Shown: positions 121 through 26,325 of the stretch, piece by piece
Layout: each line of letters opens with the position of its first letter
Position numbering within the stretch: position 1 is the first letter of the stretch
NCBI GenBank assembly: GCA_026984055.1
Contig: JALSSX010000285.1
Coordinates: 1-32,424, forward strand
Origin: Sedimenticola sp.
Lineage (GTDB): Bacteria > Pseudomonadota > Gammaproteobacteria > Chromatiales > Chromatiaceae
DNA: 32,424 nt
Direction of reading: 5' to 3'
Position numbers and translations under genes: made by a program
Notes under the pieces: generated by a model
What the model saw: the letters and a program-made list of their open reading frames with translations, nothing else
What the model was told of the DNA's origin: nothing
Database searches by the model: none

Positions 121-162
121 GGTTTGGATAGTCGAAAACCATTTGAATAGAGAGGATTAGAC

Positions 163-1427: not shown

Positions 1428-1652
1428 CCGGCAGGGTATTTGCGGTGATTCGACGTCCGGCTTGGGCGTGACGACAATGAGCGGAGATTCGATGCCCTGG
1501 GTGCCGCACCGGGATGCGCGGCCATTTCCAATGACGTTCTGTTACTGAAAATAGCGGAAACCGGGAAGCGTATTTCCTGTTTTGGAGGTAACCAGTCAGC
1601 GAAGCGTTCGCGAGCGAAGCAGCTGCTTTTGGCGTTGGATCGCTGATTCACG

Positions 1653-1684
1653 GTCGCCGTGGCGGATCTAGCCGCCTCGGCGAC
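1653..1684 (+). other. Long hairpin in the 5' leader of nosB
   Basis: Bases 1653-1659 and 1661-1665 pair with 1678-1684 and 1672-1676, giving 12 base pairs with one T-T mismatch around the loop ATCTAG. It ends 34 bases before the preferred nosB start (1719). There is no T tract, so it is more likely an mRNA stability, processing or translation element than a terminator. It would fall inside the coding region if the GTG at 1659 were the start, which argues against that start. Confidence 0.6.
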
Positions 1685-1718
1685 GATGATTTTCTCGACG
1701 ATAACGGGTCACTCGTTT

Positions 1719-2906: not shown

Positions 2907-2957
2907 GCGAGGACAAGGCGGCGATGCGCATGTCCAAGGGGGCATTGTTCACTCGCG

Positions 2958-2988
2958 GGCTGTTGAAAAATGCCATTTTTCAACAGCC
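2958..2988. repeat. Family A palindrome, copy 1 (nosB-nosD gap)
   Basis: This is a perfect inverted repeat of 15 bases per arm (GGCTGTTGAAAAATG) around one base. It belongs to the same family as elements at 11193, 16938 and 22780. It sits in the 101-bp nosB-nosD gap and would form a stable mRNA hairpin inside the operon. The flanks CTCGCGG and GCTCGCGAG are also partly symmetric. Confidence 0.75.
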
Positions 2989-3007
2989 TGCTAGCTCGCG
3001 AGCCGCG

Positions 3008-4381
3008 ATGGCGCTTCCCCGTTTTCTTGGCCGGGCGCTTCGTCTGTTACCTGTCGTGCTGCTGCTTATGCCGGGCATGGCGGGCGCGCTGATTCAGACG
3101 ATGTCGTTACAAGCGCGCGTCGACGCGGCCGAGGAAAATGCGGTGATATTGTTGGAGGCAGGCACCTATGCGGGTCCCATCGTCATAGACAAGCCCCTGA
3201 CATTGGATGGCCGGGGCGTGGCAACGATAGACGCGGGGGGCAAGGGTTCCGTAGTCAGTATCGAAACCGACGGCGCCATTCTGAAGGGCTTGCATCTGAC
3301 GAACTCGGGCGATTCACACAACGATATCGACGCTGGCGTGCAAGTGCGGGGTGATTTCAATGTGCTCAAGGATCTGATCATCGACAACTGCCTGTTCGGT
3401 ATCGATCTCGGCCAGGCCAGCAACAATATCATCAAGCGAAACCATATCGCGTCCAAGCCATTCTCCCTGGGCCTGCGTGGCGACGCGATCCGGCTGTGGT
3501 ACAGCTTCAACAACAAGGTGACGGATAACGTCATCCGGGATTCCCGTGATACCGTGGTGTGGTATTCGGCGGACAATCTGATTGCCAGAAACGATGCGAG
3601 GCGGGGACGTTATTCCTTGCATTTTATGTATTCGAAACATAATGATGTGATTGATAATCATTATGAAAACAACGCTGTCGGGATATTCCTGATGTACAGC
3701 GATGGGGTCGTGATTCGTAACAATCTGATTGCCAACGCGAATGGCCCGACTGGCATGGGCATCGGCTTCAAGGAAAGCTCCGATGTGGAGATCGCCCACA
3801 ATCAATTGCTCTACAATGCGATCGGCATCTATCTGGACCTGTCGCCTTTCCAGCCGGATACCACCAATCGCATCCATGACAATATCATCGCCTTCAGCGG
3901 CATTGGTATCTCCTTTCTCAGTGATTGGCCGGGCAATCTGATCCAGCACAATGATTTTCGCGGCAACATTACCCAGGTGGCGGTATCCGGCAACGGGAAA
4001 TCAGTCGACCGAAATACCTGGGATGGCAACTACTGGGACGACTACGAGGGCTTCGACCTGAATCATGACGGCATTGGCGACCATGCTTACGAGCTTTACA
4101 GTTACGCCGACCGGATCTGGATGGACGTGCCGCCAGCGCGTTTCTTCAAGGGCACGCCGATGCTGGAGACGCTGGATTTTCTCGAACGTCTGGCACCGTT
4201 CTCCAAGCCGAGCAGGCTACTGAGCGACGCGCGACCGTTGATCGAGGCCAGCTTTACCGAAAAGCTGCTGACGCGGCGGCACAGCGAGGACGACGCGGAT
4301 GCCGCTTCGAATGACAACACGGCGGATCGAAGTGCGGAGTCCGACGCTTACCGAAAACTGCGGCAATCACTGGGCCGCTGA
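3008..4381 (+). CDS. nosD: NosD, periplasmic copper-maturation beta-helix protein
   Basis: This 457-aa protein begins with a signal peptide (residues 1 to about 27, cleavage after AGA). Nearly the whole mature protein consists of parallel beta-helix (CASH-type) turns, seen as repeated N-N-x-I and D-N-x-I strands. The C-terminal signature NTWDGNYWDDYEGFD and the following DRIWMDVPPARFFKG are highly typical of NosD. NosD works with the NosFY ABC transporter to assemble the CuZ centre of N2O reductase in the periplasm. The frame is open back to 2903, but that extension translates the family A palindrome and has no signal character, so ATG 3008 is chosen; the ribosome site is weak. It lies between nosB and nosG as in other clade II clusters. 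A hydrophilic Asp/Ser-rich tail follows the beta-helix. Confidence 0.92.
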   Translation: MALPRFLGRALRLLPVVLLLMPGMAGALIQTMSLQARVDAAEENAVILLEAGTYAGPIVIDKPLTLDGRGVATIDAGGKGSVVSIETDGAILKGLHLTNSGDSHNDIDAGVQVRGDFNVLKDLIIDNCLFGIDLGQASNNIIKRNHIASKPFSLGLRGDAIRLWYSFNNKVTDNVIRDSRDTVVWYSADNLIARNDARRGRYSLHFMYSKHNDVIDNHYENNAVGIFLMYSDGVVIRNNLIANANGPTGMGIGFKESSDVEIAHNQLLYNAIGIYLDLSPFQPDTTNRIHDNIIAFSGIGISFLSDWPGNLIQHNDFRGNITQVAVSGNGKSVDRNTWDGNYWDDYEGFDLNHDGIGDHAYELYSYADRIWMDVPPARFFKGTPMLETLDFLERLAPFSKPSRLLSDARPLIEASFTEKLLTRRHSEDDADAASNDNTADRSAESDAYRKLRQSLGR

Positions 4382-4396
4382 GAGGTTGATACAGTC

Positions 4397-5281
4397 ATGA
4401 CAGATAAAGCCAGGTCAAAGAAGAAAAAAGCGCTTGTCTCACCGAAGCGCCGTGAGCAGAACCGGCGTGAGTTTCTGCGTACCTCGGCGTTGACCGTGGG
4501 TATCGTCAGCGCGTCCTTGCTGGGCTTCATCCCGATCGCCAAGGGTTCCTCGGTGCGCCTGCGACCGCCAGGCGCGATCAAGGATCGGCTCGACGAGCAT
4601 GAGTTCTTCGCTGCTTGTATCAAGTGTGGGCAATGCGTTCAGGTGTGTCCGGTGAATGCTATCCATCTGGGCGATATCGACGACGGATTCGGCGTTGGCG
4701 TGCCGTTCATCGATGCGCGCGAGCAGGCCTGCGACTTCTCCTGTGATGGCTTGCAATGCGTGCTCGCCTGCCCAACGGGCGCACTGACCCATCACCTGGA
4801 TTTTCCCGCTGATGCGCGTATGGGTTTTGCACGATTAGCTAGGCCCAAGGCGTGTCTTGCGATGCAGGGCAAGGGTTTCAAGGGGCAGGCGCGGGGACCG
4901 GATTTCAAGGGAATTCTGCGTTACGCGGAGATCGATCGTTGGAACCCGGTGCCAGTCGCGGATCACCCGTACGATCTGGAGATCTGCGATCTGTGCGTGC
5001 GTCAGTGTCCGATCGAACAGCGCATCGTCGAGTGCGCCGAGCAGGACCGGCAGGCGAACGACGACAGGTTGGCGCGTGTCGCCCAACGTATCGGTAACGA
5101 ATGTCCGCCGAAGCATGCGATTACCTTGCAGCCGGTCGAATCGACCGATGGCGTGAAGCGCATGATGCCGATGGTGCAGGATGGCTGCGTGGGTTGCGGC
5201 GTATGCGAGATGATCTGTCCGGTCGAGAGCGCGGCGATCGTCGTCGATCTGGACAAGACCGCGGATTCGCTTGGAGGTTGA
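4397..5281 (+). CDS. nosG: NosG, Tat-exported polyferredoxin
   Basis: This is a 294-aa periplasmic iron-sulfur protein of the NapG/MauM family. A twin-arginine signal (N-R23-R24-E-F-L-R followed by a hydrophobic run) sits near the N-terminus. Four cysteine groups suit four [4Fe-4S] clusters: C74-x2-C-x2-C-x3-CP, the variant CDFSCDGLQCVLACP, CDLCVRQCP with a later Cys, and CVGCGVCEMICP near the C-terminus. With NosH it is thought to form a quinol-oxidising route to NosZ that replaces NosR in clade II organisms. The start has an AGAGGT ribosome site about ten bases upstream, and the gene begins 15 bp after nosD. Its stop lies one base before the nosH start, so the two are probably translationally coupled. 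Confidence 0.93.
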   Translation: MTDKARSKKKKALVSPKRREQNRREFLRTSALTVGIVSASLLGFIPIAKGSSVRLRPPGAIKDRLDEHEFFAACIKCGQCVQVCPVNAIHLGDIDDGFGVGVPFIDAREQACDFSCDGLQCVLACPTGALTHHLDFPADARMGFARLARPKACLAMQGKGFKGQARGPDFKGILRYAEIDRWNPVPVADHPYDLEICDLCVRQCPIEQRIVECAEQDRQANDDRLARVAQRIGNECPPKHAITLQPVESTDGVKRMMPMVQDGCVGCGVCEMICPVESAAIVVDLDKTADSLGG

Positions 5282-5282
5282 G

Positions 5283-6260
5283 ATGAGAAGAAACTATGTG
5301 GTCGAATCCCTGCGTCAGTTGTTCGGCTGGAAACCCACCCGGCCCAGCAAGGAAGAACAACCCGAGAAGCTCAAGCAGATCTATCAGGGCAAGCGCGGCA
5401 AGCTGACGAAGGCGGACCTTGAGGCCGCACATATCGAGCACAAGCGCACGTTTGGCAATAAATGGCAGATTCGGCGCTGGGCGACGCTGATCTTCATCAA
5501 CCTGCTGTTCGTTATCTCCTATCATTTCGATGTGCAGCTGGTCGAAGGCGCGCTCACCGCGTCGCGGGTCATGGGTTTTCACATGGCCGATCTGAATTCC
5601 GCATTGCAGGTGACACTGGCTTACAAGCATGTGGTGTTGAACCTGGTCATTGGCACGACCACGGTGTTCGTACTGTGGTTGCTGCTCGGTGGGCGCACCT
5701 TCTGTTCTTGGGTGTGTCCCTATCATCTGATCGCGGAATGGGCCGAGTATCTGCACCTGTGGCTGGTGAAGAAGAAGATCGTCAAGAACCATGTCTTCAA
5801 CCGCAAGGTGCGCGGCGTGTTCTGGTTGGTCTTCGCGTTGTTGGCGTTGGTCACCGGCTACACGATTTTCGAGACCATCTCGCCGACCGGTATCGTCAGC
5901 CGCGCGCTGATCTACGGTCCGGGGCTGGCGCTGATCTGGGTCGGTTTCCTGTTGTTGTTCGAGATTTTCTATTCTCGCCGCGCCTGGTGTCGCTATGCCT
6001 GCCCGATCGGCGTCACCTACGGTGTCGTCGGTCTGTTCTCGCCGGTGCGTGTGAAATACAACGCCGAGGCCTGCCATCACGAAGGGGATTGCCGCAAGGT
6101 GTGCTTGGTGCCGCATGTGTTGGATGTGACCATCCGTGGCGCGGCCTTCGATGTTGATCAGGATGTCGTCGCTGACTGTACGCGTTGTGGCATGTGCGTG
6201 GATGTCTGTCCGACCCACTCGCTGACCTACGAGATCAAGGGACTCGGCAAGTTTCTCTGA
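5283..6260 (+). CDS. nosH: NosH, membrane polyferredoxin
   Basis: This 325-aa member of the NapH/NosH family starts at ATG 5283, placed after a GGAGG site within the end of nosG. The TTG 12 bases earlier is in frame but less likely. The first about 70 residues are cytoplasmic and basic. At least four transmembrane segments follow, with the two conserved motifs FCSWVCPYHLIAEWAEY and CRYACPIGVTYG. The C-terminal part carries two ferredoxin-like groups, CHHEGDCRKVCLVP and CTRCGMCVDVCP. In the NapGH model, NapH oxidises quinol and passes electrons to the exported NapG partner; the same is assumed for NosGH. The stop overlaps the nosF start by one base (TGATG). Confidence 0.93.
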   Translation: MRRNYVVESLRQLFGWKPTRPSKEEQPEKLKQIYQGKRGKLTKADLEAAHIEHKRTFGNKWQIRRWATLIFINLLFVISYHFDVQLVEGALTASRVMGFHMADLNSALQVTLAYKHVVLNLVIGTTTVFVLWLLLGGRTFCSWVCPYHLIAEWAEYLHLWLVKKKIVKNHVFNRKVRGVFWLVFALLALVTGYTIFETISPTGIVSRALIYGPGLALIWVGFLLLFEIFYSRRAWCRYACPIGVTYGVVGLFSPVRVKYNAEACHHEGDCRKVCLVPHVLDVTIRGAAFDVDQDVVADCTRCGMCVDVCPTHSLTYEIKGLGKFL

Positions 6261-7132
6261 TGATTCGTTTCCAGCATGTCGTAAAGCGTTTTCGCCGCAA
6301 TGTGGTACTCAAGGGTATCGATTTGGAGATCACGCGGGGTCAGCGGGTCGCGTTGGTGGGTTCCAATGGCGCCGGCAAGACCACGTTGATTCGTTGTCTT
6401 CTGGGCGAATACAACTGTGATGGCGAGGTGAGCATCGACGGCCAGAACCCGCGTCGGTTCCGTCGCGAGGTATTGGCCAGGATCGGTTTCGTGCCGCAGT
6501 TGCCGCCGCCGTTGCGCATGCCGGTTGGTCAGTTGATCCGTTTTGCCGCCAGCCTGTGCGATTCGGACCCGGCGCGTATCGAGGAGGTCGCCGGGCTATT
6601 GGGTTTCGATGCTCCGGGCTTCCGAGGCCAACCGTTCGTCAAGCTGTCAGGCGGGCAGAAACAGAAACTGTTGATTGCCATCGCGCTCGGACGTGATGCT
6701 GAATTGCTGGTGATGGATGAACCCGCCGCCAATCTCGATCCGAAAGCGCGGCATATTTTGTTCCGGCTGCTGGCCGAGAAACAGCAGGATACGGCAATGC
6801 TGATCTCCAGCCATCGTCTCGATGAGGTGGCCTCGCTGGTGAATCGTGTTGTCGAGATGGATCAGGGCAGGGTGGTGTTGGACGACGAGGTTGCCGATTT
6901 GGTCGATCTGTCCAGCCGCTTGCGCTGCCGGGTCACGATGACGCGTGCCGAGGATGCCTTCGCGCGCGCGTTGAGAGAATGGCATTTCGTGCTGGCCGAT
7001 GGGGAGCGGGTCTGGGAGGGCTTGGTACCGGGGCCGGATAGGCTGCGTTTTCTCGGTATGCTGTCGCGTTACGCGGCCTTGCTCGGTGGGTTGGAGATGT
7101 TGGATGACGATGATACCGAAAGCGCGGCTTGA
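6260..7132 (+). CDS. nosF: NosF, ABC transporter ATPase
   Basis: This is a 290-aa ATPase with Walker A GSNGAGKTT, signature LSGGQKQKL and Walker B LLVMDEPAANLD followed by the switch histidine in SSHRLDE. About 75 residues after the ATPase core are typical of NosF. With NosY and NosD it forms the NosDFY machine, which supplies sulfur or drives copper insertion during CuZ assembly. The frame is open upstream to 6185, but that is nosH in another frame; ATG 6260 overlaps the nosH stop by one base, a coupled arrangement. The 3' end overlaps nosL by 29 bp. Confidence 0.93.
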   Translation: MIRFQHVVKRFRRNVVLKGIDLEITRGQRVALVGSNGAGKTTLIRCLLGEYNCDGEVSIDGQNPRRFRREVLARIGFVPQLPPPLRMPVGQLIRFAASLCDSDPARIEEVAGLLGFDAPGFRGQPFVKLSGGQKQKLLIAIALGRDAELLVMDEPAANLDPKARHILFRLLAEKQQDTAMLISSHRLDEVASLVNRVVEMDQGRVVLDDEVADLVDLSSRLRCRVTMTRAEDAFARALREWHFVLADGERVWEGLVPGPDRLRFLGMLSRYAALLGGLEMLDDDDTESAA

Positions 7133-7637
7133 ACTTTTCGCCAGCCTGTTGCTGCTGGTGTTGGCCTCCGCCTGTTCCAAGGATCCGGGTAGCGGGCCGG
7201 TGGCGGTGCATTGGGACCGGGATGTCTGCGAACGTTGTCGCATGGTGCTCAGTAATCCGCGTTTCGCCGTGCAGATACGTTATTTCCCACCGGGAGCGCG
7301 TTCGCGCGTGGCGAAGTTCGACGACATCGGTTGCGCCTTGTTGTGGCTGGACGAGCAGCCCTGGAAGAACACTATGAAGAGCGAGATATGGGTGGCCGAT
7401 TATCGCACCGGAAAATGGTTGGACGCGCGCCAGGCGAGTTATGAGAAAGTGAACAACACGCCGATGGAATACGGCTTGGGCGCGCGACCGGACAAGCCCC
7501 CTGGCAGCATGGATCTGGCTCAGGCCCATGCGCATGTCGTCGAGGTCGAAAAGCGCTTCGGTGTTCATGGATTGCAGCTGGAACAGACCTTGCGGCGGCA
7601 GGCGGCCAAGCGCCAGGCGCGGGAGAAGACGCGATGA
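7104..7637 (+). CDS. nosL: NosL, copper-binding lipoprotein
   Basis: This 177-aa lipoprotein has a lipobox LASAC with lipidated Cys24. The mature part contains the NosL copper motif C42-E-R-C45-R-M47, as in the family signature that binds Cu(I). NosL is a periplasmic copper chaperone that delivers metal to apo-NosZ. The start at ATG 7104 lies 8 bases after a GGAG site and overlaps the end of nosF; a second ATG at 7110 is possible. The gene precedes nosY here. The stop overlaps the nosY start (ATGA), so the nosG to nosY genes are all tightly packed and probably form one transcript. The C-terminal 30 residues are an Arg/Gln-rich helix. Confidence 0.92.
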   Translation: MTMIPKARLELFASLLLLVLASACSKDPGSGPVAVHWDRDVCERCRMVLSNPRFAVQIRYFPPGARSRVAKFDDIGCALLWLDEQPWKNTMKSEIWVADYRTGKWLDARQASYEKVNNTPMEYGLGARPDKPPGSMDLAQAHAHVVEVEKRFGVHGLQLEQTLRRQAAKRQAREKTR

Positions 7638-8461
7638 ATCATCTGCTATTGACTGCTTGGGCGGATCTCATCGAGTCGTTGCGCGCGCGCTGGTTCATCG
7701 TCTATGCGCTGGTGTTTGGCGGCATCGTTGTCTTGCTGTTCGCCTTCGGTCTGTCGGAATCACGCGTGATGGGTTTCACCGGTCTGTCACGTCTGTTGGT
7801 CACTTACATCCAGTTGTCGATGGCGATCCTGCCGATCTTTGTGCTGATCACAACGGTGCGCTCGGTTGCCGGTGATCGCGAGGCCGGCGTGTTCGAATAT
7901 ATGTTGTCGTTGCCGGTGAGTCTGTCGGCTTGGTTCTGGGGGCGCATGTCGGGGCGTTTCGTGGTGGTTTTTCTGCCGGTTTTCGTCGCGATGGTCGGCG
8001 CATTGCTATGGGGCGCTATCAAGGGAGGCGAGACCCCATGGGAGTTGTTCGCCTATTACACTGCTTTGCTGGTTGCATTGTGCTGGTGCTTTCTCGGCAT
8101 CGGCATGTTGATCTCGACGCTGGCGCGTTCGTCCGACGTGGCCCAGGGCGCGGCCTTCGTCGTCTGGCTGACCCTGCTGTTGTTTCTCGACCTGATCCTG
8201 TTGGGCGTGATGATCCGTGAAAGCCTGCCACCGGAGGATGCTGTGGCGTTGGCCTTGATCAATCCGTTGCAGGTGTTTCGCACCGCGACGATGATGCTGT
8301 TCGATCCGCAACTGGTGCTGCTGGGCCCCACAGCCTACGTGATTCTGGATAACTTCGGTCGCGCCGGCTATATCGCCTATGCGGTGTGCTATCCGATCGT
8401 GCTGGGCACGTTGTGCGCGTGGATAGGCTATCAGGTATTCAAACGTTCCGACTTGCCCTGA
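7634..8461 (+). CDS. nosY: NosY, ABC-2 type permease
   Basis: This 275-aa inner-membrane protein with six hydrophobic segments is the membrane partner of NosF. It has the usual features of ABC-2 family NosY: a first helix near residues 20-40, the loop RSVAGDREAGVFEYMLSLP, and a last helix ending about ten residues from the C-terminus. The DREAG motif is the coupling region that contacts the ATPase. It overlaps nosL by four bases, and the following small gene starts four bases after its stop. Confidence 0.92.
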   Translation: MNHLLLTAWADLIESLRARWFIVYALVFGGIVVLLFAFGLSESRVMGFTGLSRLLVTYIQLSMAILPIFVLITTVRSVAGDREAGVFEYMLSLPVSLSAWFWGRMSGRFVVVFLPVFVAMVGALLWGAIKGGETPWELFAYYTALLVALCWCFLGIGMLISTLARSSDVAQGAAFVVWLTLLLFLDLILLGVMIRESLPPEDAVALALINPLQVFRTATMMLFDPQLVLLGPTAYVILDNFGRAGYIAYAVCYPIVLGTLCAWIGYQVFKRSDLP

Positions 8462-8465
8462 TTGC

Positions 8466-8942
8466 ATGCGCGGATCCTATCTCGCGCTTGCTGTTGGCGC
8501 TATCGCGGGTATTGCAGCGTTGCTCGCCTGGTGGTCGTGGTCGGAAACGCCACGCTCGTCGCGGTTGCGGCCAGGTGTCGATCTATCGCCGGACAGTGCC
8601 TGCGATCTGCGCGCGGCCCCCTGTGTCAGTGTTGTGCCGAGCGGTGGAACGATCGCCTTTGGCATTCAGCCACGCGCGATTCCGTTGATCGAGCCATTGG
8701 CCCTTTCGGTGGTGTTGGCGGGTATTGATGCGACCACGGTGGGCGTCGACATCGTCGGGATCGGCATGAACATGGGGGCGAACCATAAGCGGCTAAAGTC
8801 TTTCGGCGAGGGCCGTTATTCCGGTGTCACCAGTCTGCCGGTATGCATCCGTCGGGCGATGGAGTGGGAGGCACGGGTGACGGTTTCCAACGGGGTAAAG
8901 TCGAGGACGATCGCGCGTTACCGCTTCATTACGACGCACTGA
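8466..8942 (+). CDS. Membrane-anchored periplasmic protein at the end of the nos operon (FixH/YtkA-like?)
   Basis: This 158-aa protein has one N-terminal hydrophobic segment (residues 5-25) that could be an anchor or an uncleaved signal. Two cysteines (CDLRAAPC, about residues 47-53) could form a disulfide or bind metal. The C-terminal half is rich in beta strands with the pattern G-M-N-M-G-x-N-H, then GRYSGVTSLPVC and a closing W-E-A-R-V strand. This recalls the FixH/YtkA beta-sandwich group, some of whose members handle copper, and the Met/His/Cys residues would fit copper binding. The start lies four bases after the nosY stop, so it is very likely cotranscribed with the nos genes. Function is not established; a copper accessory role for NosZ is an inference. 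Confidence 0.7.
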   Translation: MRGSYLALAVGAIAGIAALLAWWSWSETPRSSRLRPGVDLSPDSACDLRAAPCVSVVPSGGTIAFGIQPRAIPLIEPLALSVVLAGIDATTVGVDIVGIGMNMGANHKRLKSFGEGRYSGVTSLPVCIRRAMEWEARVTVSNGVKSRTIARYRFITTH

Positions 8943-14524: not shown

Positions 14525-15376
14525 TTATTTTCGCGCTGACGGGCCGTTGTATTCGATACCGTTGCTCATATGCGTCAGAAAATACTCCAGATTACGGTAC
14601 TGTCTATGTTGGGGCTTGAACGGTTTCGCGCGAACCTGCTTGTTACAGCCCTTGAAGCGGCGATGCAGCGTGCCAAGCTCACCCCATTTGGAACGGTAGA
14701 CAGGCCAGCCGGTCGTTTGTCCCAATGCCGGGCTGAGAATATCGGTGCGGATATGTTGCCCGGCGCTTTCCACATGACAACTGGCGCAGGAAAAGTTCAG
14801 CTGTCCGCGACGCGCGAAATAGAAGGACTTTCCGTCGTTGTACGCAGCCAGTGCATCGGCATCGCCTTTCGGGATGACGACGTGGGTTTTCTGACCACGT
14901 GACTCATATGCCATGTAGGACAGAATCCGGGTGATTGGACCCTTGGCCCATTTCAACGGCTTCTCGCCATTCTTTTCCCGGCATTCGTTGACCATCATTG
15001 GCAATGTGACGACCATCTTCCGTTTTGCGTCCCAGCGCGGATAGTTCTTCCGTTGCGCCGGGCCGTCGGGAAAGCAACTGGAATAGGTTTTTCCATTCGC
15101 GAATGGCTTGTTCCACATCTCCTCGCCTTCTTCGATCATCGGCTCGTAAGGGGGGAATTCCTCGATCGCTTCCCAGGAGTCACGTGATACTTTGTCGATG
15201 GCATAGACACCATTCTGAAACTCGTTTAATGGTACACCGGGAAATTTCTTCATGAAATAATCACGATAGACCTTCAGGTCTTCCTCGGGTGTTGTGTCAG
15301 TGGCCTTTTTGTTGGCGAAGGCACTGCCAGTAGCCAGCAGGCTAATGGCAAGTACGGCAACCAATTGTTTTTTCAT
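14525..15376 (-). CDS. soxA: SoxA, monohaem-type thiosulfate-oxidising cytochrome subunit
   Basis: This 283-aa protein starts at ATG 15376 after a clear GGAGGAG site, with a signal peptide to about residue 21 (SAFA-N). The frame is open further upstream, but that part overlaps soxZ. The C-terminal cytochrome domain has haem motif C197-A-S-C200-H201 and the active-site cysteine in RFKGC244NKQV, which ligates the haem as a persulfide. The N-terminal domain lacks a second CXXCH; C101 and C132 are placed where a structural disulfide is expected, so this is the one-haem SoxA type. With SoxX it forms the SoxAX enzyme that links thiosulfate to the SoxY cysteine in the periplasm. It is the last gene of the operon, and soxB does not follow. 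Confidence 0.95.
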   Translation of the reverse strand: MKKQLVAVLAISLLATGSAFANKKATDTTPEEDLKVYRDYFMKKFPGVPLNEFQNGVYAIDKVSRDSWEAIEEFPPYEPMIEEGEEMWNKPFANGKTYSSCFPDGPAQRKNYPRWDAKRKMVVTLPMMVNECREKNGEKPLKWAKGPITRILSYMAYESRGQKTHVVIPKGDADALAAYNDGKSFYFARRGQLNFSCASCHVESAGQHIRTDILSPALGQTTGWPVYRSKWGELGTLHRRFKGCNKQVRAKPFKPQHRQYRNLEYFLTHMSNGIEYNGPSARK

Positions 15377-15425
15377 GGATTGTGTCTCCTCCCGGGTGGG
15401 GTATAAGAGTTGAGTGAGTGGAAAA

Positions 15426-15743
15426 TCAGCGAATCTTTGCCGTGGCGGAGTCGCTGCCACCCTTGTTGTCAACCCAGCTGAGTTTGATCTCGTCACCCTT
15501 GCCCGCGCCGGTAAATTTGAAGGACAGATAAGGGTTCTTGGAAACGCCACCACTCATCTCGGCAACGAATACCTTTTTGCCGCCTGCTTCACAGGTGACC
15601 TCTTCGATGAAGTGGGCCGGAATCAGTTTGCCGGTCTTCTTATTCTTGCGCAGTCCGGTTTCCATTGGATGGGTGATCAATGTCTTGACGGTTGTCACGC
15701 CGCCTTTTTCCTTCGCGCGGATCTTGATGCTTGATTTTGCCAT
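15426..15743 (-). CDS. soxZ: SoxZ, sulfur carrier complex subunit
   Basis: This 105-aa protein is made of short beta strands in an immunoglobulin-like fold. The start MAKSSIKIRAKEK and motifs such as THPMETGLRK, IPAHFIEEVTC and NPYLSFKFTGAGKGDEIKLSW are diagnostic of SoxZ. It pairs with SoxY to form the periplasmic sulfur carrier; having no signal peptide, it travels with SoxY through the Tat system. It lies 49 bp after soxY and 49 bp before soxA on the same strand. Confidence 0.95.
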   Translation of the reverse strand: MAKSSIKIRAKEKGGVTTVKTLITHPMETGLRKNKKTGKLIPAHFIEEVTCEAGGKKVFVAEMSGGVSKNPYLSFKFTGAGKGDEIKLSWVDNKGGSDSATAKIR

Positions 15744-15792
15744 GCTTTGTATACCTTTATCGTGTTTACGGATGATCGGTTGACGTCAGTGA

Positions 15793-16269
15793 TCAACCGC
15801 CGCAGCCACCAATCGTGACCTTCACCGCCTTGGATGCCTTGTAAAGCTTGCCGTTGGCTTTGACGATGGCGACCACATCCCCGGTTTTGCCCATCTTGAT
15901 GCGCGTCGAGACGAAACCTTTTGCTCCAGGACCCAGCTTGGCATTGAAGATCAGCGGAGTCTGATTGCCGGTCGAGAGAATGCTGATGGACTCAGTGCCG
16001 GCGATGCCAGAGGTTACGGAAACCGGAACCACGGCACCATTCTCGGCAATATCCGGAGCCTTGATCTTGATCGCGCTGCTTGCCTCGGCGGCATTGCTGC
16101 CAAGCAGATTCTTCAGCGCGTTGGCGGAGGATTTGGCATGAAATGCGCTTTCCGACCACTTTGCCAGCACCGTCTGTGGTGTCAGCAGGCCGGCGCCAGC
16201 GGCAGCGCCAAGAGTACTGGCGGCCACGGAACCCTTGATGAAGCGTCTGCGTTTGATGTTCGTGTTCAT
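15793..16269 (-). CDS. soxY: SoxY, covalent sulfur carrier
   Basis: This 158-aa protein starts with a Tat signal (KRRRFIKGS, then a long Ala/Gly-rich hydrophobic run ending near VLAKW). Its C-terminus is GGCGG, where the cysteine (C156) carries the sulfur substrate on a flexible arm between SoxAX, SoxB and SoxCD. All hallmarks of SoxY are present. A GGAG site lies upstream (rc of CTCC at 16281-16284). It is the second gene of soxXYZA, 37 bp after soxX. Confidence 0.96.
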   Translation of the reverse strand: MNTNIKRRRFIKGSVAASTLGAAAGAGLLTPQTVLAKWSESAFHAKSSANALKNLLGSNAAEASSAIKIKAPDIAENGAVVPVSVTSGIAGTESISILSTGNQTPLIFNAKLGPGAKGFVSTRIKMGKTGDVVAIVKANGKLYKASKAVKVTIGGCGG

Positions 16270-16306
16270 TTTTTTATGTCTCCTGAAATGACAACGGTTA
16301 GGCGAT

Positions 16307-16675
16307 TCAAAGCGTGTAGAGGAAATCGACTACCGCATCGATCTCTTTTTCGCTCAGCACCTTGTGGCGACCAAACGGGATCATGCGTGAGTTGGGGTTG
16401 TTGGCGGTGGCATCCCAGATCTGCGCGCGTAATTTGTTGCGATCCGGGAAGCGGGCCTTCATCGCGACCAGGGGAGGACCGATGTCGCCAGGGCTGACGC
16501 CGCCGGCGATGGCATGACAGGCGAGACAATTGCCTTTCTTTCTGTTGAAAGCCGTCTTCTTGCCGAAGTCGACGCTGGATGACGCGCCGGCCGTTGCCAT
16601 CGACATGCCGCCGAACGTGCCTGCCAGTGTAATGACGCAAGCTGCGGCGGTGGTGATTATTGCGGAACTCCGCAT
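16307..16675 (-). CDS. soxX: SoxX, monohaem cytochrome of the SoxAX complex
   Basis: This 122-aa secreted cytochrome starts at ATG 16675, preceded by an excellent GGAGGAA site. The signal peptide is about 1-29. The haem motif is C50-L-A-C53-H54, and Met98 in SRMIPFGRHKVL is the sixth ligand; the ending IDAVVDFLYTL is typical of SoxX. It partners SoxA in the first step of periplasmic thiosulfate oxidation. It is the first gene of the operon and has a 13-bp palindrome about 62 bp upstream. Confidence 0.95.
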   Translation of the reverse strand: MRSSAIITTAAACVITLAGTFGGMSMATAGASSSVDFGKKTAFNRKKGNCLACHAIAGGVSPGDIGPPLVAMKARFPDRNKLRAQIWDATANNPNSRMIPFGRHKVLSEKEIDAVVDFLYTL

Positions 16676-16736
16676 AGGTATTCCTCCTAGATAACTGGTG
16701 TGGGTAAGGGGAATGATTGTATGGACTCGCGCCGCC

Positions 16737-16749
16737 ATAGGTGACCTAT
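16737..16749. promoter_or_regulatory. Candidate operator upstream of soxX
   Basis: ATAGGT-G-ACCTAT is a perfect 6+6 palindrome centred 68 bp upstream of the soxX start codon, in the sox promoter region. The stretch beyond it (16790-16900) is AT-rich, in keeping with a promoter. No known binding motif is matched with confidence. Confidence 0.4.
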
Positions 16750-16937: not shown

Positions 16938-17098
16938 CAGGTCGTTGAAAAATGGCATTTTCAACGGCCTGAGTGCAGTAAAGGGATGTGCCACCATTTT
17001 CGATGACTGCAAGTCATTGAAAATGAAGGAATCGGGAAATCGAATTTTTTGGTTTCGTCGTTGAAAAAGTCCATGGAAGGACTTTTTCAACATCCTGC
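16938..17098. repeat. Family A composite element, copy 3
   Basis: The first hairpin (16938-16971) has arms CAGGTCGTTGAAAAATG and CATTTTCAACGGCCTG. The second (17059-17098) has arms GTTGAAAAAGTCC and GGACTTTTTCAAC. They are in the same order as in the copy at 11193-11301, but the linker is about 50 bp longer. It fills the middle of the 516-bp space between soxX and the Maf gene. The rest of that space holds the sox upstream region and about 90 bp in which I see nothing. Confidence 0.7.
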
Positions 17099-19294: not shown

Positions 19295-19474
19295 TTACTT
19301 GCCGGTGCTGATCTTGAATGGTGTATATGCCGGGCACCAGCCGATAGCGGCGGTGAACAGCGGAATCAGGCCAATGGCGCCGAGCCAGTTCTGGGCATAG
19401 AACCCCCAGCCGATGACGCCGAGTCCGACGATGGCGCGCAGAATCCGGTCGATACTACCTACGTTCTTGCTCAT
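19295..19474 (-). CDS. Small DUF2892 membrane protein
   Basis: This 59-aa protein has two hydrophobic helices (LRAIVGLGVIGWGFYA and GAIGLIPLFTAAIG) and the conserved ending W-C-P-A-Y-T-P-F, the signature of DUF2892 (also found fused to rhodanese in YgaP-like proteins). ATG 19474 follows a GGAG site; the frame upstream is not used. It lies 129 bp downstream of the FNR-type regulator gene on the same strand and may be cotranscribed or controlled by it. Its function is unknown; family members often accompany sulfur-transfer proteins. Confidence 0.8.
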   Translation of the reverse strand: MSKNVGSIDRILRAIVGLGVIGWGFYAQNWLGAIGLIPLFTAAIGWCPAYTPFKISTGK

Positions 19475-19603
19475 GATGTTTTTCTCCAGTTGCTCCAATG
19501 TTCCATGGAAACCCGGTGAAGATCGCGGATTTCTCAATGTTTGACAGGGCCAGCTTAGTACGCCCGTAATCCTCTGTCTGTGACAAGATCACGCGCCGGG
19601 ATG

Positions 19604-20293
19604 CTACAGGCCGTTCGCGCCAATGCCAAGAAGGTAATCGCGGTCGATGACCGTCACTTGTCCGCGAGACAAACGGATCGCGTCACCTTGTTCGAACGAT
19701 TTCAACAGGCGACTGACGACCTCTCGCGAGGTGCCGAGTTCATCGGCGATCTCTTGATGCGTGGCGTGGATGGCGGTGGGCGATCCACTGCCGTGACGCA
19801 GCAGATAGGCGGCGACACGTTGGTCCAGTCGCTGGAATACCACCTCCTCGACAACTTGGATGATCGCGCTCAGGCGGTCGGCGACCAGGCTGAAGATATA
19901 GGCTTGCCAGGCGGCATCCTGTCCGATCCATTTGCGCACGAAATCGGCTGGCAGCAGCGCGGCGGCGAGGTTGGATTCTACATTCGCGGTTGCCGGGAAC
20001 GGTCTGCCGCTGAGGATGCAGGAGGCTGTGAGAACACAGCTTTCACCCGGATGGATCCGGTACAGGGTGATCTCCTTGCCGTTCTCGCCGCTCTTGTAGA
20101 TGCGCGCGACGCCTTCCACCAATAGTGGCAGATGGGTGCAGGTGTTGCCTTCGGCGCAAACCTCGTTGCCCGTTTTCAAGTGCGCGAGTATCACCTTGTC
20201 GAAAAAGGCACGACAAAAATCACTGCCCGCTCCTTGCAAAAAGGGAAACAGTTCCCTGAGCCGGTTCTCGTTGTCGGGATTGTTCATGCTCAT
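19604..20293 (-). CDS. Crp/Fnr-family transcription regulator
   Basis: This 229-aa protein has an N-terminal cyclic-nucleotide-type beta-barrel (about 15-120), a long dimer helix (about 125-160) and a C-terminal winged helix. The recognition helix TSRE191VVS194R195LLK carries the E-x-x-S-R pattern by which FNR reads TTGAT half sites. The N-terminal cysteine cluster that binds the oxygen-sensing [4Fe-4S] in FNR is missing. However, Cys27, Cys46, Cys52, Cys86 and Cys92 are present, the last two in GESCVLTASC, so redox, sulfide or NO sensing through thiols or haem is possible. ATG 20293 overlaps the response regulator stop (ATGA); ATG 20287 is an alternative. Coupling to that gene suggests shared control. 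Confidence 0.88.
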   Translation of the reverse strand: MSMNNPDNENRLRELFPFLQGAGSDFCRAFFDKVILAHLKTGNEVCAEGNTCTHLPLLVEGVARIYKSGENGKEITLYRIHPGESCVLTASCILSGRPFPATANVESNLAAALLPADFVRKWIGQDAAWQAYIFSLVADRLSAIIQVVEEVVFQRLDQRVAAYLLRHGSGSPTAIHATHQEIADELGTSREVVSRLLKSFEQGDAIRLSRGQVTVIDRDYLLGIGANGL

Positions 20294-22545
20294 TGGCCAA
20301 TATCCAGATGCTTACCTGTAATATAGCAGTCCGCACCGACCAGTTGGCTCAATGCGGCGTTATTGTCCGCATGTGGCAGCACCAGTTGAATCTCGCTGTT
20401 TCGTCCCAGATCGAAAAAGGATTTGATCTTGAACACATCTTCCTGGAGTGATTTGGGTGATAGGACTAGCTGCCTAAGGTTAAGATAATCCGCGATCTGA
20501 AATACGCTGGCGTGCAAGCCGACGTCGAAGGCCGAAGCAGCTATGCCGGCATCTTTGAGCGTATCCAGATAGGCTCGCGATTGTTGCAAGTTCCGGTTGA
20601 GCGCGGCGATAGGGAAAAGGCATACCATGCCGCTACCCACTTGTTGCTTGAGCCGGAGCGCGTCCCGCAGCCACGCCGGCTGATCAGATGCATCGATGAC
20701 CCTGGCTGACTGGGGTACGAGCAAGTGAGCGCCAAGGCTGCTTCGATGCAGCAATCGAATCCTGTCCAATGCGCTGGAGAACAGATCGCGGTCGAGTTGC
20801 AAGCGGGACTTCGCCGGGAGCCCCGCGTAGGCGACGGAGACCCCTTGCCATTGCCGGGTTTCAGGGAAGCTGGCGTCCGCCAGATAGGCGCAGACCGCAT
20901 GGGAGTCGGCCTGGCGAATCTCGCGAAGGTGGATATCCACGGGCTTGCGGCTGAGCACATGCCGGTTCAGTCGTTCAAGTTGTTCTTCCATCAAACGTTG
21001 TCTGGTGTCCGCATGCAACATGCACCGATGGCCGTTGCCAGTCTGGCTGGCGGAGGCGGCATATTCCCAGACCCGGGTGTCGCTTGGATCCTCGATAAGG
21101 TGCAGGCCGCTCTTGGCTACCTTTGTCGTTGGGACTTGGCGGGTCGGGCCGAAGGCGGCAAGCAGGATGCCATGCAGGTTGTTGGCGATCAGCACAATGC
21201 CCTCGATATCCTTGCCATGGATCACGCCGCGCAGGATGTTGTCGCCGGCCGGAAGGAGAAGTCCACGATTGCGGAGTCGGGTATTCAAGCTGCTTATCAG
21301 TTTGTCGATGACGCCCGGCTCGACCCGCGTATCGCCGTCAAGTTCGACATGCAGCGCGAGGCTTAGTAACCCGGGTTGCCGTTCACGCTGTTCACTTGTA
21401 TGACGGGCCATTTGTTCGAGAATATTCTGTTCGGGTCCGGGAGAGGCTGCTTCGTCGCGTGGCGCGGAGGTATCCGCCTGGGATTTGAGGGCTTCCTTTA
21501 CGGTTTTGATGAGCTTCTTCGGCCGAATGGGCTTTTCCAGGAAGCCGTTCGCGCCGGCGGCCAACGCGGCTTCCTGCTTGTCTTTCTCCAGTTCTCCGGA
21601 CAGGTAGATCAGCGGAATATCCCGATAATCCAGCTTGCCGCGCAGCATCACGGTCAGTTCTTCGCCGCTGATGTCAGGCATGTACAGGTCGATCAGTATC
21701 AGGTCTGGCACGAACTCGTCAGCCATCGCAAGCACCTTGGCGGGGTCGCTGATGGCGAGGGTGCGCATGCCGGCATTGGCGAGAATCGCGGCGGCGAATT
21801 CCGCCTGGCTCTCATCGTCGTCCACGACGATGACGCCGGGCAAAGCGTTCGGTGTGCTACGTGACGTCGAGGGAGGCGGGGCGGTGGTTCCCCGCTCCGG
21901 AAACAGCGTGTTAAGCAGTTCGCTGGCAATCAGCGGGACCGTGAAGAATCGTTCAGCGCCCAGTCGTTCCGCTTCCATCCTGGAATCCACGTCGTCCTCG
22001 ATACTGACGACCGAGAGAGTGATCGGCGATGCCTCCGCTCGTCGCGCAAAGGCATCCAGAAACGGTTGAAGTTTGTTTCCAGAACGCAGATCAACGAGCA
22101 GGTCGAGCGCGGTGGCGTTTTCCAGCGCGTGCGTCAGCGAGAATACATCGTCGATCAACGACAAGCGTATACGACGCTCCGCGCACAGGTCGTGAATGCC
22201 GAAAGGCAGGAGTTCCGGGTCGCCAAAATACAGCAGCGTGTTGTATTGCGCCGATGCGTGATCCGATTTCTTGAGGTAGTCACCGATATCCTGTGATAGC
22301 TTGCGGAGTTTTTCGAGTTGCCGTCTGTCGGGAAGGTTGGATCGGCCAGAGAATGTACTGAGAAATACGCTGAAGGAGAATGCGGCATTGTTCAGCCCGG
22401 GATAGGGGCTGTTTTTCTCGGTACTCTCTTCAAGCCGTTGGGCGGTTGTGTAGAGCGTTTCCAAGGCGGGCTGTGACGGCTGCTCCAGCAAGGCCTCCAT
22501 TTGGCGCAGCAGGTCTTTGATGATGTCCGATAACTGGGTGTCCAT
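20290..22545 (-). CDS. Multidomain response regulator with central REC and degenerate EAL-like C-terminus
   Basis: This 751-aa cytoplasmic protein has a helical N-terminal region (1-100) and then a REC-like fold without phosphorylation residues (about 103-215). A complete REC domain (about 236-355) follows, with VVDDDES, phosphoacceptor D286 in LILIDLYMP, YLSG and the conserved lysine in LEKPIRP. Residues 375-500 might be a degenerate diguanylate-cyclase-like module. The last about 240 residues resemble the EAL fold (QSARVIDASDQP, FDVGLHASVFQIADYLNLRQLVLS) but lack the E-A-L and the metal-binding acids, so c-di-GMP hydrolysis is unlikely. It is divergent from the hybrid kinase gene and coupled to the FNR-family regulator, so it probably receives phosphate from that kinase. 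The domain boundaries at the C-terminus are tentative. Confidence 0.8.
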   Translation of the reverse strand: MDTQLSDIIKDLLRQMEALLEQPSQPALETLYTTAQRLEESTEKNSPYPGLNNAAFSFSVFLSTFSGRSNLPDRRQLEKLRKLSQDIGDYLKKSDHASAQYNTLLYFGDPELLPFGIHDLCAERRIRLSLIDDVFSLTHALENATALDLLVDLRSGNKLQPFLDAFARRAEASPITLSVVSIEDDVDSRMEAERLGAERFFTVPLIASELLNTLFPERGTTAPPPSTSRSTPNALPGVIVVDDDESQAEFAAAILANAGMRTLAISDPAKVLAMADEFVPDLILIDLYMPDISGEELTVMLRGKLDYRDIPLIYLSGELEKDKQEAALAAGANGFLEKPIRPKKLIKTVKEALKSQADTSAPRDEAASPGPEQNILEQMARHTSEQRERQPGLLSLALHVELDGDTRVEPGVIDKLISSLNTRLRNRGLLLPAGDNILRGVIHGKDIEGIVLIANNLHGILLAAFGPTRQVPTTKVAKSGLHLIEDPSDTRVWEYAASASQTGNGHRCMLHADTRQRLMEEQLERLNRHVLSRKPVDIHLREIRQADSHAVCAYLADASFPETRQWQGVSVAYAGLPAKSRLQLDRDLFSSALDRIRLLHRSSLGAHLLVPQSARVIDASDQPAWLRDALRLKQQVGSGMVCLFPIAALNRNLQQSRAYLDTLKDAGIAASAFDVGLHASVFQIADYLNLRQLVLSPKSLQEDVFKIKSFFDLGRNSEIQLVLPHADNNAALSQLVGADCYITGKHLDIGQ

Positions 22546-22605
22546 AGACTGATAAACGATTCTATTTCTATTTGATTTTTATTGGCGCTGGTCGAGAGGT
22601 TTGAT

Positions 22606-22759
22606 TTATCGTCACGGCCAGCGAAACGTCGGGATGATAGCGCGACCTCATTCGTTCCTGGCGGTGTTACTCACATCGTTGTGGGAAGATACGCCCTCCT
22701 CGCGCCTTGCTAGGAACGAAATGGCGCGCATGCGGAAATTCGACTGGCTGCGGCGATAA
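22606..22759. repeat. Family C element, copy 1 (inverted-terminal-repeat element)
   Basis: This 154-bp element has imperfect 20-bp inverted ends (TTATCGTCACGGCCAGCGAA at the left; the right end reads GTTATCGCCGCAGCCAGTCG when inverted). An inner inverted pair TTCGTTCCT and AGGAACGAA is also present. It is related to 26691-26847 and to 31873-31990. It has no coding capacity. It lies between the divergent response regulator and kinase genes. Confidence 0.75.
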
Positions 22760-22779
22760 CAACCTCATTCAGTCTTTAG

Positions 22780-22815
22780 CAGGCCATTGAAAAATGGCAT
22801 TTTTCAATGCCTTGG
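22780..22815. repeat. Family A palindrome, copy 4
   Basis: CAGGCCATTGAAAAATGG is followed by CATTTTTCAATGCCTTG, a palindrome of about 16 bp per arm. It directly abuts a partial family B element, so two repeat types are fused here. The 551-bp space 22546-23096 holds this, family C copy 1 and family B copy 3. The remaining about 220 bp before the kinase start show no recognisable gene. Confidence 0.7.
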
Positions 22816-22872
22816 ACGTCCCACGGCCGAATCACAGGCAACCTTTACATGGTCCGGGGTGTTTTCCCATCA
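22813..22872. repeat. Family B repeat, partial copy 3
   Basis: This stretch aligns with 9086-9143 (shared pattern GGACRTCCCA, GCCGAA, CAACCTTT or GAACCTTT, ATGRTCCGGG). Only the right part of the family B unit is present. Confidence 0.6.
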
Positions 22873-23096
22873 TGAGAACCTGCTCCTGGCTGGGTTTTCG
22901 TTACATCCAGGTTTCACTATGCGCCTCGAAAGATCGAAAAACCAGCCTCGATTCAGACAGCCTCGCCACACCTCCCTGGTGGGTGGCCAACGTGGGCGCC
23001 ATTTCATTCCCGATGGCTGGCTGCTCAAGCCGGATTCACGGGTTATTGTACACAGATTGCGCGTCAGCCGGGATGTTGGCGTATCCTTATGGCGCT

Positions 23097-25871
23097 ATGG
23101 ATGACAAGGTGATTGATCTTCCCCAACAGGCTGCTTCGCGACATTGGGTGCGAAGTAGGTTGCCGATGCTTCCACTGTTCCTCGCGGCGGGCTTGCTGCT
23201 GCTCTGTGTATTGTTGACGGATGGGCTGGTTCAGTGGCTGGGTTTTGCCGCCGTGGGTGCTTTTGTTTCCGGCGCGGTGATTAGAAAAACGGCGGGCGAT
23301 ATCGGGTATCGCTTCGGTAGTAGCTTGCTGGCGGTGGCGGCATTTGTCTCAGGGTGGGTTTGGGTGCTGATGGCAAACGCGAGTTCATTGCCGACGAATG
23401 GGGCTTTCTGGGCGTCGCCGTTGCTGTTGTTCTTCCTCGCTGGCGCGTTTCTTCCGGTGCTACTGGCAATTTCCGCGCCACCGCGTATCGCGTTGTTTCA
23501 GTTGCTATTGCTGGCCGGACAGTTGTTCGGCATGCTCAAGTCTCTGTCCGTGATGATTGTGTCGGGTGCTTGGCCGTCGCCGCTCCTTCTGATGGTGCTG
23601 ACTTCGCATCTGCTGGCGTTTGTTCCGGGCGCGATGCTGAGACGCCGCTCCCTGGCGCTCGATGTGGTCGGTCGGGATCTGGTCCAGGTCCGCGAGGAGC
23701 TGGGGGAGGTTCGTGAAGCGCTGACGGATACGGCCCGCGCGCGTGATGCGGTGGAGCACGAGTTGGCGGTTACGCGTAACCAGGCCGAGATTGCCGACGT
23801 GGCGAAAACCGAGTTTCTCGCTACCATCAGCCACGAGATCAGAACACCGTTGAACGGCATTCTCCCTATTTTGGAGATGCTGCGGGATACCGAACTGAAA
23901 CAGGAGCAGCATCAGCATGTCGATACCGCGCTCAGTTCCTCGCGTCATCTGCTGCGAATCATCAATGACATACTGGATTTCTCCAAGATCGAGGCGGGTA
24001 AGCTCGAACTCGAGTCCATCAACCTGAATCTGCGTGATGTGATCCAGGCGGTTACTGCGCTGATGGCCAAGAGTGCTGAACGCAAGGGCCTGCGAATCTC
24101 GACCATCATCCAGGACGATGTGCCGTTGTTCGTGTCCGGTGACCCGATTCGGCTGCGTCAGATACTGATCAACTTGGTCGGCAATGCGATCAAGTTCACC
24201 AACAAAGGCGGCGTCAGCGTCGAGGTGATCAATCAACGCGCTGGACGACGTATCGTCGATCTGCTTTTTGTGGTGCGCGACACCGGTATCGGCATGTCGC
24301 CGGCAACGGCGCGCAAGCTGTTTCAATCCTTCTCCCAAGCAGATGCGTCGACAACCCGGAAACACGGCGGTTCGGGACTCGGGCTGGCGATCTGTAAACG
24401 CCTGGTCGAGTTGATGGGAGGCAGCATCGGGGTACGCTCGCAACAGGGCGTGGGTTCTTTGTTCTGGTTTCAGGTTCCGTTTCGGCGCACCTTGGAGATT
24501 AATGAGCATCGAACCAGCCTGAGCAATGCACGCGTGCTGGTGCTTTCCGAGGATGTCGCGCGGAAACGCCGACTGGATGACCTGCTTGGGCGCTGGGGAG
24601 TGATGAAGGCGATTGCACACAGCGCCGATGAGGCGGTGGCCAAGGTGACATCCTCGGCGCATCTCGGATTTTCCTGGGCCTACGAAGCGATTATTATCGA
24701 CATCCGCGCGCTGGATAGTGACGTGGTTGGGTTTATCCATGAACTGCGTCGCCTGACCGAGATGGATGACCTGAAGATCCTGTTGATCGGCGATCGGGTT
24801 CAGATTCAGTTGCCAGAGGACGCGGAGAGTTATGTCGAGATTCTCAGCGGAAAATGCAGCGATAAGGACATCAAGCAAGCACTGAATCATCTTCTTGGAG
24901 TCGGTCAGGCCGAGGCTGAGCAGACTTGGTGGAACGATGATGTACCCGAGCAGATGTTTTTCGAGGAGGAGTTGCTGGGGCTAGAGCAGACGCCCAGGCT
25001 TCCCGTTCAGGAATCCCCGGTTTCCGGTGCCGAAGGACACAAGGGATACCAAGGCCGGATTCTGGTTGCCGAAGATAATCCAGTGAATCTGACGGTCTTC
25101 CTCCACTTACTCAATAAGTTCGGCCTTGAGGTGGATGCGGCGGCCGATGGCGCCGAGGCGATAAAACAGATCGGTTCCAGATCCTATGACCTGGTGTTTA
25201 TGGATTGTCAAATGCCTGGCGTCGATGGCTACGAGGCGACCCGCATCGTGCGCGGACGGGAGCAGGAAGCGGGCGTCGAAGCCGGCGTGCCGATCATCGC
25301 GATGACGGCAAACGCCATGCCGGGTGATCGGGAACGCTGCTTGCACTGCGGGATGAACGATTACCTGTCCAAACCCGTCGACCGAAACAGCCTGCAACGT
25401 CTACTCGGCAGATGGCTGGACGAGCGCATCGTTCCGTCTGTTACGTCCGTCGAGGTGGAAACCTCCAAAGGCGAGTCAGCCATCGAACCGTCGGGTTCCG
25501 TGTCCATGCCGGCCTTGGATTCGGTGTTGGATGCCGATGTCATCGACGAGCTGCGGGACATCATGGAAAGCGAGTTTGCAGTGTTGTTGCGGCGCTATCT
25601 GGACACCGCGCCGGAGCAACTGGAGACGCTGGCGGCATTGTCGTTGAAGGCGCGTCTGGATGAAGTGTCGAAGATTGCGCATTCGTTGAAATCGAGTTGC
25701 GCGAACGTCGGCGCCATGCGGATGTCGGATCTGGCTCGCCAGATGGAAATGGCGGCAAAAGAGAACAACCAGATCACCTGTCTCGAATTGAATCGACGGT
25801 TGGATCAGGAGGCGCGACTGGTGGAGCACGCGCTGCGACGGCTACTTGAAACGGAACACGAATCATCCTGA
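23097..25871 (+). CDS. Hybrid sensor histidine kinase with two REC modules and Hpt
   Basis: This 924-aa inner-membrane kinase has about six transmembrane segments (27-181), a coiled coil, a HisKA domain with phospho-accepting H246 (ISHEIRTPLN), and an ATPase domain with N363, DTGIGM and GGSGLGLAI. A diverged REC-like domain follows (about 476-600), then a complete REC with D703 (FMDCQMPGVDGYEA) and KPVDR, and finally an Hpt domain with H862 (KIAHSLKSSCANVGA). This is a BarA/ArcB-like phosphorelay layout; the periplasmic loops are too short for a sensor domain, so sensing may be within the membrane. The frame is open back to 22794, but that part translates repeat elements. ATG 23097 or 23073 is the likely start, with no strong ribosome site. 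The divergent response regulator is the obvious partner. Confidence 0.88.
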   Translation: MDDKVIDLPQQAASRHWVRSRLPMLPLFLAAGLLLLCVLLTDGLVQWLGFAAVGAFVSGAVIRKTAGDIGYRFGSSLLAVAAFVSGWVWVLMANASSLPTNGAFWASPLLLFFLAGAFLPVLLAISAPPRIALFQLLLLAGQLFGMLKSLSVMIVSGAWPSPLLLMVLTSHLLAFVPGAMLRRRSLALDVVGRDLVQVREELGEVREALTDTARARDAVEHELAVTRNQAEIADVAKTEFLATISHEIRTPLNGILPILEMLRDTELKQEQHQHVDTALSSSRHLLRIINDILDFSKIEAGKLELESINLNLRDVIQAVTALMAKSAERKGLRISTIIQDDVPLFVSGDPIRLRQILINLVGNAIKFTNKGGVSVEVINQRAGRRIVDLLFVVRDTGIGMSPATARKLFQSFSQADASTTRKHGGSGLGLAICKRLVELMGGSIGVRSQQGVGSLFWFQVPFRRTLEINEHRTSLSNARVLVLSEDVARKRRLDDLLGRWGVMKAIAHSADEAVAKVTSSAHLGFSWAYEAIIIDIRALDSDVVGFIHELRRLTEMDDLKILLIGDRVQIQLPEDAESYVEILSGKCSDKDIKQALNHLLGVGQAEAEQTWWNDDVPEQMFFEEELLGLEQTPRLPVQESPVSGAEGHKGYQGRILVAEDNPVNLTVFLHLLNKFGLEVDAAADGAEAIKQIGSRSYDLVFMDCQMPGVDGYEATRIVRGREQEAGVEAGVPIIAMTANAMPGDRERCLHCGMNDYLSKPVDRNSLQRLLGRWLDERIVPSVTSVEVETSKGESAIEPSGSVSMPALDSVLDADVIDELRDIMESEFAVLLRRYLDTAPEQLETLAALSLKARLDEVSKIAHSLKSSCANVGAMRMSDLARQMEMAAKENNQITCLELNRRLDQEARLVEHALRRLLETEHESS

Positions 25872-25893: not shown

Positions 25894-26325
25894 ATGTCCA
25901 CACAAGCCGAACCGAAAGCGATCAGCCCACGACAAGCGGCGGATATCCTTGCCCGGAATCCGCGCGCGATCCTGGTCGATGTGCGTTCCAGCATGGAATT
26001 CCTTTTCGTTGGCCACCCGGTCGGCGCCGTGCATGTCGCCTGGATAGACGAACCAGACTGGGACATCAATCCGGATTTCGTCGTCAAGGTGCGTAAATTG
26101 CTGCTTGGCGGGATTGCCCCGGAGCATACCGGATCGGATGCGATGGTCATACTGATCTGCCGTAGCGGTAAACGTTCGCACGAGGCGGGCAAGCTGTTGC
26201 TACAACATGGCATCGAGAACGTCTGCCATATCGACGAAGGATTCGAGGGTGAACTCGACGATGCTCATCAGCGCAGCAGTATCGGTGGCTGGCGGTATCA
26301 CGGTCTTCCCTGGGAGCAATGCTGA
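25894..26325 (+). CDS. Single-domain rhodanese-like sulfurtransferase
   Basis: This 143-aa protein without a signal peptide starts at ATG 25894 after a GGGGAGAG site. The rhodanese fold is complete: LVDVRSSMEF near residue 25 and the active-site loop C-R-S-G-K-R-S with catalytic cysteine near residue 89, followed by the usual GFEGELD ending. It should move sulfane sulfur in the cytoplasm. It begins 22 bp after the hybrid kinase gene, so it is probably in the same transcript. That is in keeping with a sulfur-related signal for the kinase, although this is inference. Confidence 0.9.
   Translation: MSTQAEPKAISPRQAADILARNPRAILVDVRSSMEFLFVGHPVGAVHVAWIDEPDWDINPDFVVKVRKLLLGGIAPEHTGSDAMVILICRSGKRSHEAGKLLLQHGIENVCHIDEGFEGELDDAHQRSSIGGWRYHGLPWEQC

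Follow-up and report, generated by a model that had tools for sequence, protein, structure and literature searches.

The regulator that overlaps a response regulator gene in this locus is, by its sequence, a member of an unnamed, widespread Crp/Fnr subfamily with conserved cysteines. Its predicted operator is TGTGAC-N3-GTCACA rather than TTGAT, and it probably turns on the adjacent gene for a DUF2892 membrane protein. Taken as a whole, the locus is best explained, in our judgement with somewhat better than even confidence, as two separable modules, a cysteine-bearing activator with DUF2892 and a kinase with a FimX-type relay partner. We found no description of a Crp/Fnr–DUF2892 pair in the open-access literature.

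Results

Architecture of the locus

We analysed a window of 32,424 nucleotides (the whole stretch of DNA presented here), from a Sedimenticola sp. genome of 3.16 Mb in 325 contigs. The open reading frames and their Pfam matches confirm the gene order DUF2892–Crp/Fnr–response regulator on the minus strand, with a divergent hybrid kinase on the plus strand and a rhodanese after the kinase (Table 1). This is the layout given by the first-pass annotation, in which a kinase with an Hpt domain lies opposite a REC protein whose gene overlaps that of the Crp/Fnr protein, and DUF2892 (PF11127) and rhodanese (PF00581) proteins occupy the two arms. The stop/start overlap between the response regulator and Crp/Fnr reading frames is 4 bp (ATGA).

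Table 1. Features of the regulatory locus and associated sites, in window coordinates.
Feature	Position	Strand	Details
DUF2892 / YgaP-like transmembrane protein	19295..19474	-	~59 aa; invariant Cys47; PF11127 1.8e-23
Predicted -10 element TAAGCT, DUF2892 promoter	19552..19557	-	From aligned promoters
Predicted operator CGTGATcttGTCACA	19579..19593	-	Consensus TGTGAC-N3-GTCACA; upstream of DUF2892; conserved in relatives
Crp/Fnr-family regulator	19604..20293	-	229 aa; Cys46, Cys52, Cys86, Cys92; PF00027 and PF13545 above cut-off
FimX-type response regulator (RR)	20290..22545	-	751 aa; PF00072 and FimX profile match; order: pseudo-Hpt, degenerate REC-like, REC (D286), degenerate GGDEF, degenerate EAL
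Hybrid histidine kinase (HK)	23097..25871	+	~925 aa; Pfam, 21-sequence alignment, hydropathy; order: 5-6 TM, HisKA (H347, ORF numbering), HATPase, REC-like, REC (D804), Hpt (H963)
Single-domain rhodanese	25894..26325	+	PF00581; 3' of kinase
FNR-box-like TTGATAATGATCAA	560..573	+	Perfect match, between two cytochrome genes of nos cluster

A hybrid kinase paired with a FimX-type response regulator

Pfam identifies HisKA, HATPase, REC and Hpt domains in the kinase, and H347, D804 and the Hpt residue H963 are invariant across an alignment of 21 sequences, so that the HisKA histidine, REC aspartate and Hpt histidine of a phosphorelay are all conserved. The layout is that of BarA/TorS-type hybrid kinases; however, the protein falls far below the curated cut-offs for these families and has a multi-TM sensor without a known sensory domain. 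It had been described as a six-TM kinase: the membrane assignment holds, but hydropathy indicates 5–6 segments and is not decisive for exactly six. We rejected the kinase start at 22794 as spurious in favour of a true start at about 23073/23097, because residues 1 to ~95 of the longer frame are partly encoded by a dispersed repeat and are missing from relatives, which begin at about residue 94–102 of the ORF in the 21-sequence alignment. The repeat, an intergenic element of ~70 bp at 22808–22877 of which the genome has more than 20 diverged copies, accounts for the false N-terminus. A palindromic TTGAAAAATGGCATTTTTCAA-like repeat is found at 22781–22812, 2963–2993 and 16938–16971; there are several in the window and more elsewhere in the genome.

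The response regulator had been labelled 'EAL-like'. Its relation to REC and EAL proteins stands, and a family profile of 27 sequences supplies the fuller identity of a FimX-type degenerate GGDEF-EAL protein, matching FimX (4j40) with E=8.7e-72, far above ordinary GGDEF-EAL proteins. EAL is detected in every one of the 27 sequences, GGDEF in 24 of them, in tandem and both without catalytic motifs; the window's protein taken alone scores only 12.8 bits against EAL. An Hpt match, present in 7/27 members, is weak and covers an N-terminal region without a phospho-accepting histidine. D286, which the first-pass annotation had numbered correctly, is invariant in the family alignment. FimX itself is a type IV pilus c-di-GMP effector with which this family has the degenerate GGDEF-EAL in common. 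The window's protein differs from it in the pseudo-Hpt, degenerate REC-like and intact REC domains added upstream, in having a hybrid kinase as its partner, and in the loss of the EVLLR-like motif of FimX-type EAL domains. Since this E-x-L-L-R-like motif, kept in FimX and several relatives, has been lost in the window's genus, c-di-GMP binding there is doubtful. An AF2 model of the response regulator, built from two sequences, was too poor for use (pLDDT 35).

Two modules that are often joined

The first-pass annotation had staked its reading of the HK-Hpt/REC-EAL-like/Crp-Fnr triplet on conservation in relatives, and a gene-neighbour comparison finds the triplet kept in 8 genera with operon-like spacing, so that this objection falls. 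The complete block, DUF2892-Crp-RR followed by the divergent kinase, occurs in the same order in 20 genomes of 8 genera within one GTDB family; these genomes were selected for carrying both hits on one contig, and 20 is therefore not a rate. In all 20 the RR and Crp genes share one strand and are separated by -4 to 48 bp. Among 33 further Crp-positive loci the majority retain Crp and DUF2892 alone, and that pairing is also found across the class; seven RR loci, conversely, have the kinase and lack Crp. Because each pair occurs without the other, the locus is made up of two modules that are often joined.

The tight, same-strand RR–Crp spacing in 20 genomes of 8 genera, together with 3 of the 33 further loci in which the kinase adjoins Crp without the RR, argues against the view that the two pairs are mere neighbours whose linkage reflects inherited gene order and no shared signalling. 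We nevertheless put that view only a little short of even, as each module is also found alone, FimX proteins are type IV pilus effectors, and the HK–RR gap holds no shared operator: a dyad scan upstream of Crp, RR and HK yielded nothing notable and so points to no regulatory connection between the modules.

Conserved cysteines in the regulator

The regulator scores above cut-off against PF00027 (44.5 bits) and PF13545 (59.2 bits), which places it in the Crp/Fnr superfamily. We looked in its sequence for the FNR-type N-terminal cysteine cluster and found it absent, in agreement with the first-pass annotation, which had overlooked four conserved cysteines and a conserved operator. C52, C86 and C92 are near-invariant among 54 regulator sequences and are found again in most relatives across the class; 45 of the 54 have C46, which is often absent outside the family. 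The nearest solved chain, 3dv8 (E=6e-33), a Crp/Fnr-family structure from Eubacterium rectale, has cysteines at the equivalents of 52, 86 and 92 and lacks C46, which is usually there in the window's regulator family. In an alignment with E. coli CRP (alignment only), C86 and C92 coincide with the region of the nucleotide pocket, which is replaced in the regulator by a CVLTASC-type motif. The protein is not a cAMP-dependent CRP by the NCBIfam CRP model, against which it scores 35.5 bits for a cut-off of 266. An AF2 model from two sequences (pLDDT 49) was too poor for placing the cysteines.

Gases and redox are common signals for Crp/Fnr proteins. With three to four conserved cysteines in the effector domain and relatives across the class, it is quite possible, if short of even, that these residues hold a metal or Fe-S cofactor or form a disulfide switch for oxygen, NO or general redox, and that the induction of DUF2892 by sulfide is indirect.

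Reactive sulfur is our candidate signal for the regulator, with oxygen, NO or general redox as rivals, and a sulfur link of the locus is plausible from its context. The DUF2892 cysteine is invariant in 45 sequences, and the gene adjoins Crp in most relatives. In Azospira suillum, the DUF2892 gene Dsui_0042 is among the most abundant transcripts, is expressed ~10-fold higher under H2S oxidation and, when deleted, slightly delays H2S oxidation (PMC5358917). The first-pass annotation had drawn its sulfur hint from both arms of the locus. DUF2892 sustains it, as conserved neighbour, predicted target and by the Azospira data, whereas the rhodanese does not: it adjoins the kinase only within the genus, is absent at that position in other genera, and its linkage beyond the genus was rejected. 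The window also carries a sox cluster at 14525–16738 (SoxA-like, a SoxZ-like reading frame, SoxY and a cytochrome); glutathione reductase and Maf genes lie near it. Cysteine-based sulfur-responsive regulators encoded near rhodanese or YgaP-like genes include SqrR/BigR/YgaV, CstR and FisR; these belong to ArsR, CsoR or sigma54-dependent families, whereas the present regulator is a Crp/Fnr protein.

A predicted operator at the DUF2892 promoter

An unbiased dyad scan of the regions upstream of DUF2892, Crp, RR and HK recovered GTGA-N5-TCAC upstream of DUF2892 in 45 of 51 regions, with TGTGAC-N3-GTCACA as the best cases. Promoters aligned on this dyad share a further block, cTAnncT, whose distance does not vary, the operator centre lying 29 bp from it. 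Should this block be the -10 element, the centre of the operator would fall at about -41, the position of a class II activator (near -41.5), for a start site that is itself predicted.

A search of 146 genomes for the combined operator and -10 pattern gave 76 sites, spread over 70 genomes, where the reversed control gave 15; with the spacing shortened by one base there were 10 hits, none of them a known DUF2892 promoter. The pattern is present in 65 of the 75 regulator-positive genomes, the other 10 lacking it in exact form, and in 5 of 71 with no clear regulator (Fisher p=2e-24, a value inflated by genome relatedness). It remains with DUF2892 where that gene sits away from the regulator gene. 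Three class-level regulator relatives have no detected DUF2892 neighbour; the operator is still found in two of them. That the site tracks orthologues of the regulator, adjoins the regulator gene and has a spacing unlike the N6 of CRP makes it improbable that another Crp-family protein binds it, even though the genome encodes eight Crp-type HTH proteins that score above cut-off and the site resembles those of CRP.

The helix R190-E191-V-V-S194-R195, numbered correctly in the first-pass annotation, is conserved. R190, E191 and R195 align with R180, E181 and R185 of CRP, and S194 matches the FNR serine. With E. coli CRP the regulator shares the fold family, these three residues, a predicted TGTGA-type half site and a predicted class II promoter position; it differs in the spacer (TGTGA-N5-TCACA here, N6 in CRP), in the cysteines of the effector domain and in giving no sign of cAMP use. 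The likeness to FNR/ANR lies in the Crp/Fnr family and the E..SR of the helix, and the differences in the missing CxxC-x5-C N-terminal cluster, the arginine that precedes the helix glutamate and the predicted operator, TGTGAC in place of TTGAT.

Extra operator-like sites occur in single relatives before genes for a SLAC1 channel, an octaheme-type cytochrome and a SoxA/TsdA-like cytochrome, and a further one before a gene for a CoA-binding protein; the octaheme-type gene is accompanied by a putative cytochrome b561-type gene. These sites are suggestive of a wider regulon, yet their count does not exceed the chance background and we set that idea aside. We also dropped a weak match at 15483, which falls within coding sequence immediately 5' of soxA, at a soxZ-like position.

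The nos cluster

The nos cluster (163–8942) encodes two c-type cytochromes, NosD, ferredoxin-type proteins and ABC transporter genes; a large ORF in this region, at 1659–2906, has no Pfam match. The first-pass annotation had proposed an FNR-type regulator that recognises TTGAT and could tie sulfur state to N2O respiration through nos, and a TTGAT box, a perfect TTGATAATGATCAA, is indeed there at 560–573. Despite this box, the E-xx-S-R helix and the presence of sox, nos and the regulator locus in one window, we regard the proposed circuit as very improbable: the conserved operator predicted beside the regulator is TGTGAC-N3-GTCACA and not TTGAT-N4-ATCAA, R190 is CRP-like, no match to the operator with up to 3 mismatches was found in region 1–8942, and a canonical FNR encoded elsewhere in the genome (CQNC-x5-C, of the CxxC-x5-C form, and a VETVSR helix) suffices to explain the TTGAT box. 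With the TTGAT half site unsupported for the regulator and no match to its predicted operator in nos, control of nos by this protein is not supported at the level of sequence.

Discussion

In the two-module explanation that we favour, the Crp/Fnr activator, bearing C52, C86-x5-C92 and usually C46, would bind TGTGAC-N3-GTCACA near -41 and switch on the small membrane protein DUF2892. In this sulfur-oxidising lineage, the regulator cysteines would most likely respond to a reactive sulfur or redox signal. In the second module, the membrane hybrid kinase with its Hpt domain would phosphorylate D286 of the FimX-type degenerate GGDEF-EAL effector, a phosphotransfer suggested by domain logic and divergent pairing. 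The effector gene lies just upstream of the activator gene in 8 genera and the two are probably co-transcribed, so that the kinase pair and the activator may respond to related conditions.

A more ambitious version, which we offer tentatively and consider unlikely in its entirety, is that a class-wide, undescribed Crp/Fnr subfamily senses reactive sulfur through C52/C86/C92 in what was once the nucleotide pocket and uses TGTGAC-N3-GTCACA to activate DUF2892. In several genera it would share an operon with part of a kinase/FimX-type relay and be wired to it, so that sulfur chemistry would be coupled to surface behaviour.

The analysis removes a wrong lead, the control of nos by this regulator. 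For a Crp/Fnr subfamily that is widespread but unnamed, it would supply an operator open to testing, a promoter geometry, a main target and candidate residues for sensing. DUF2892, a small protein seen to be induced during H2S oxidation, would gain a likely direct regulator.
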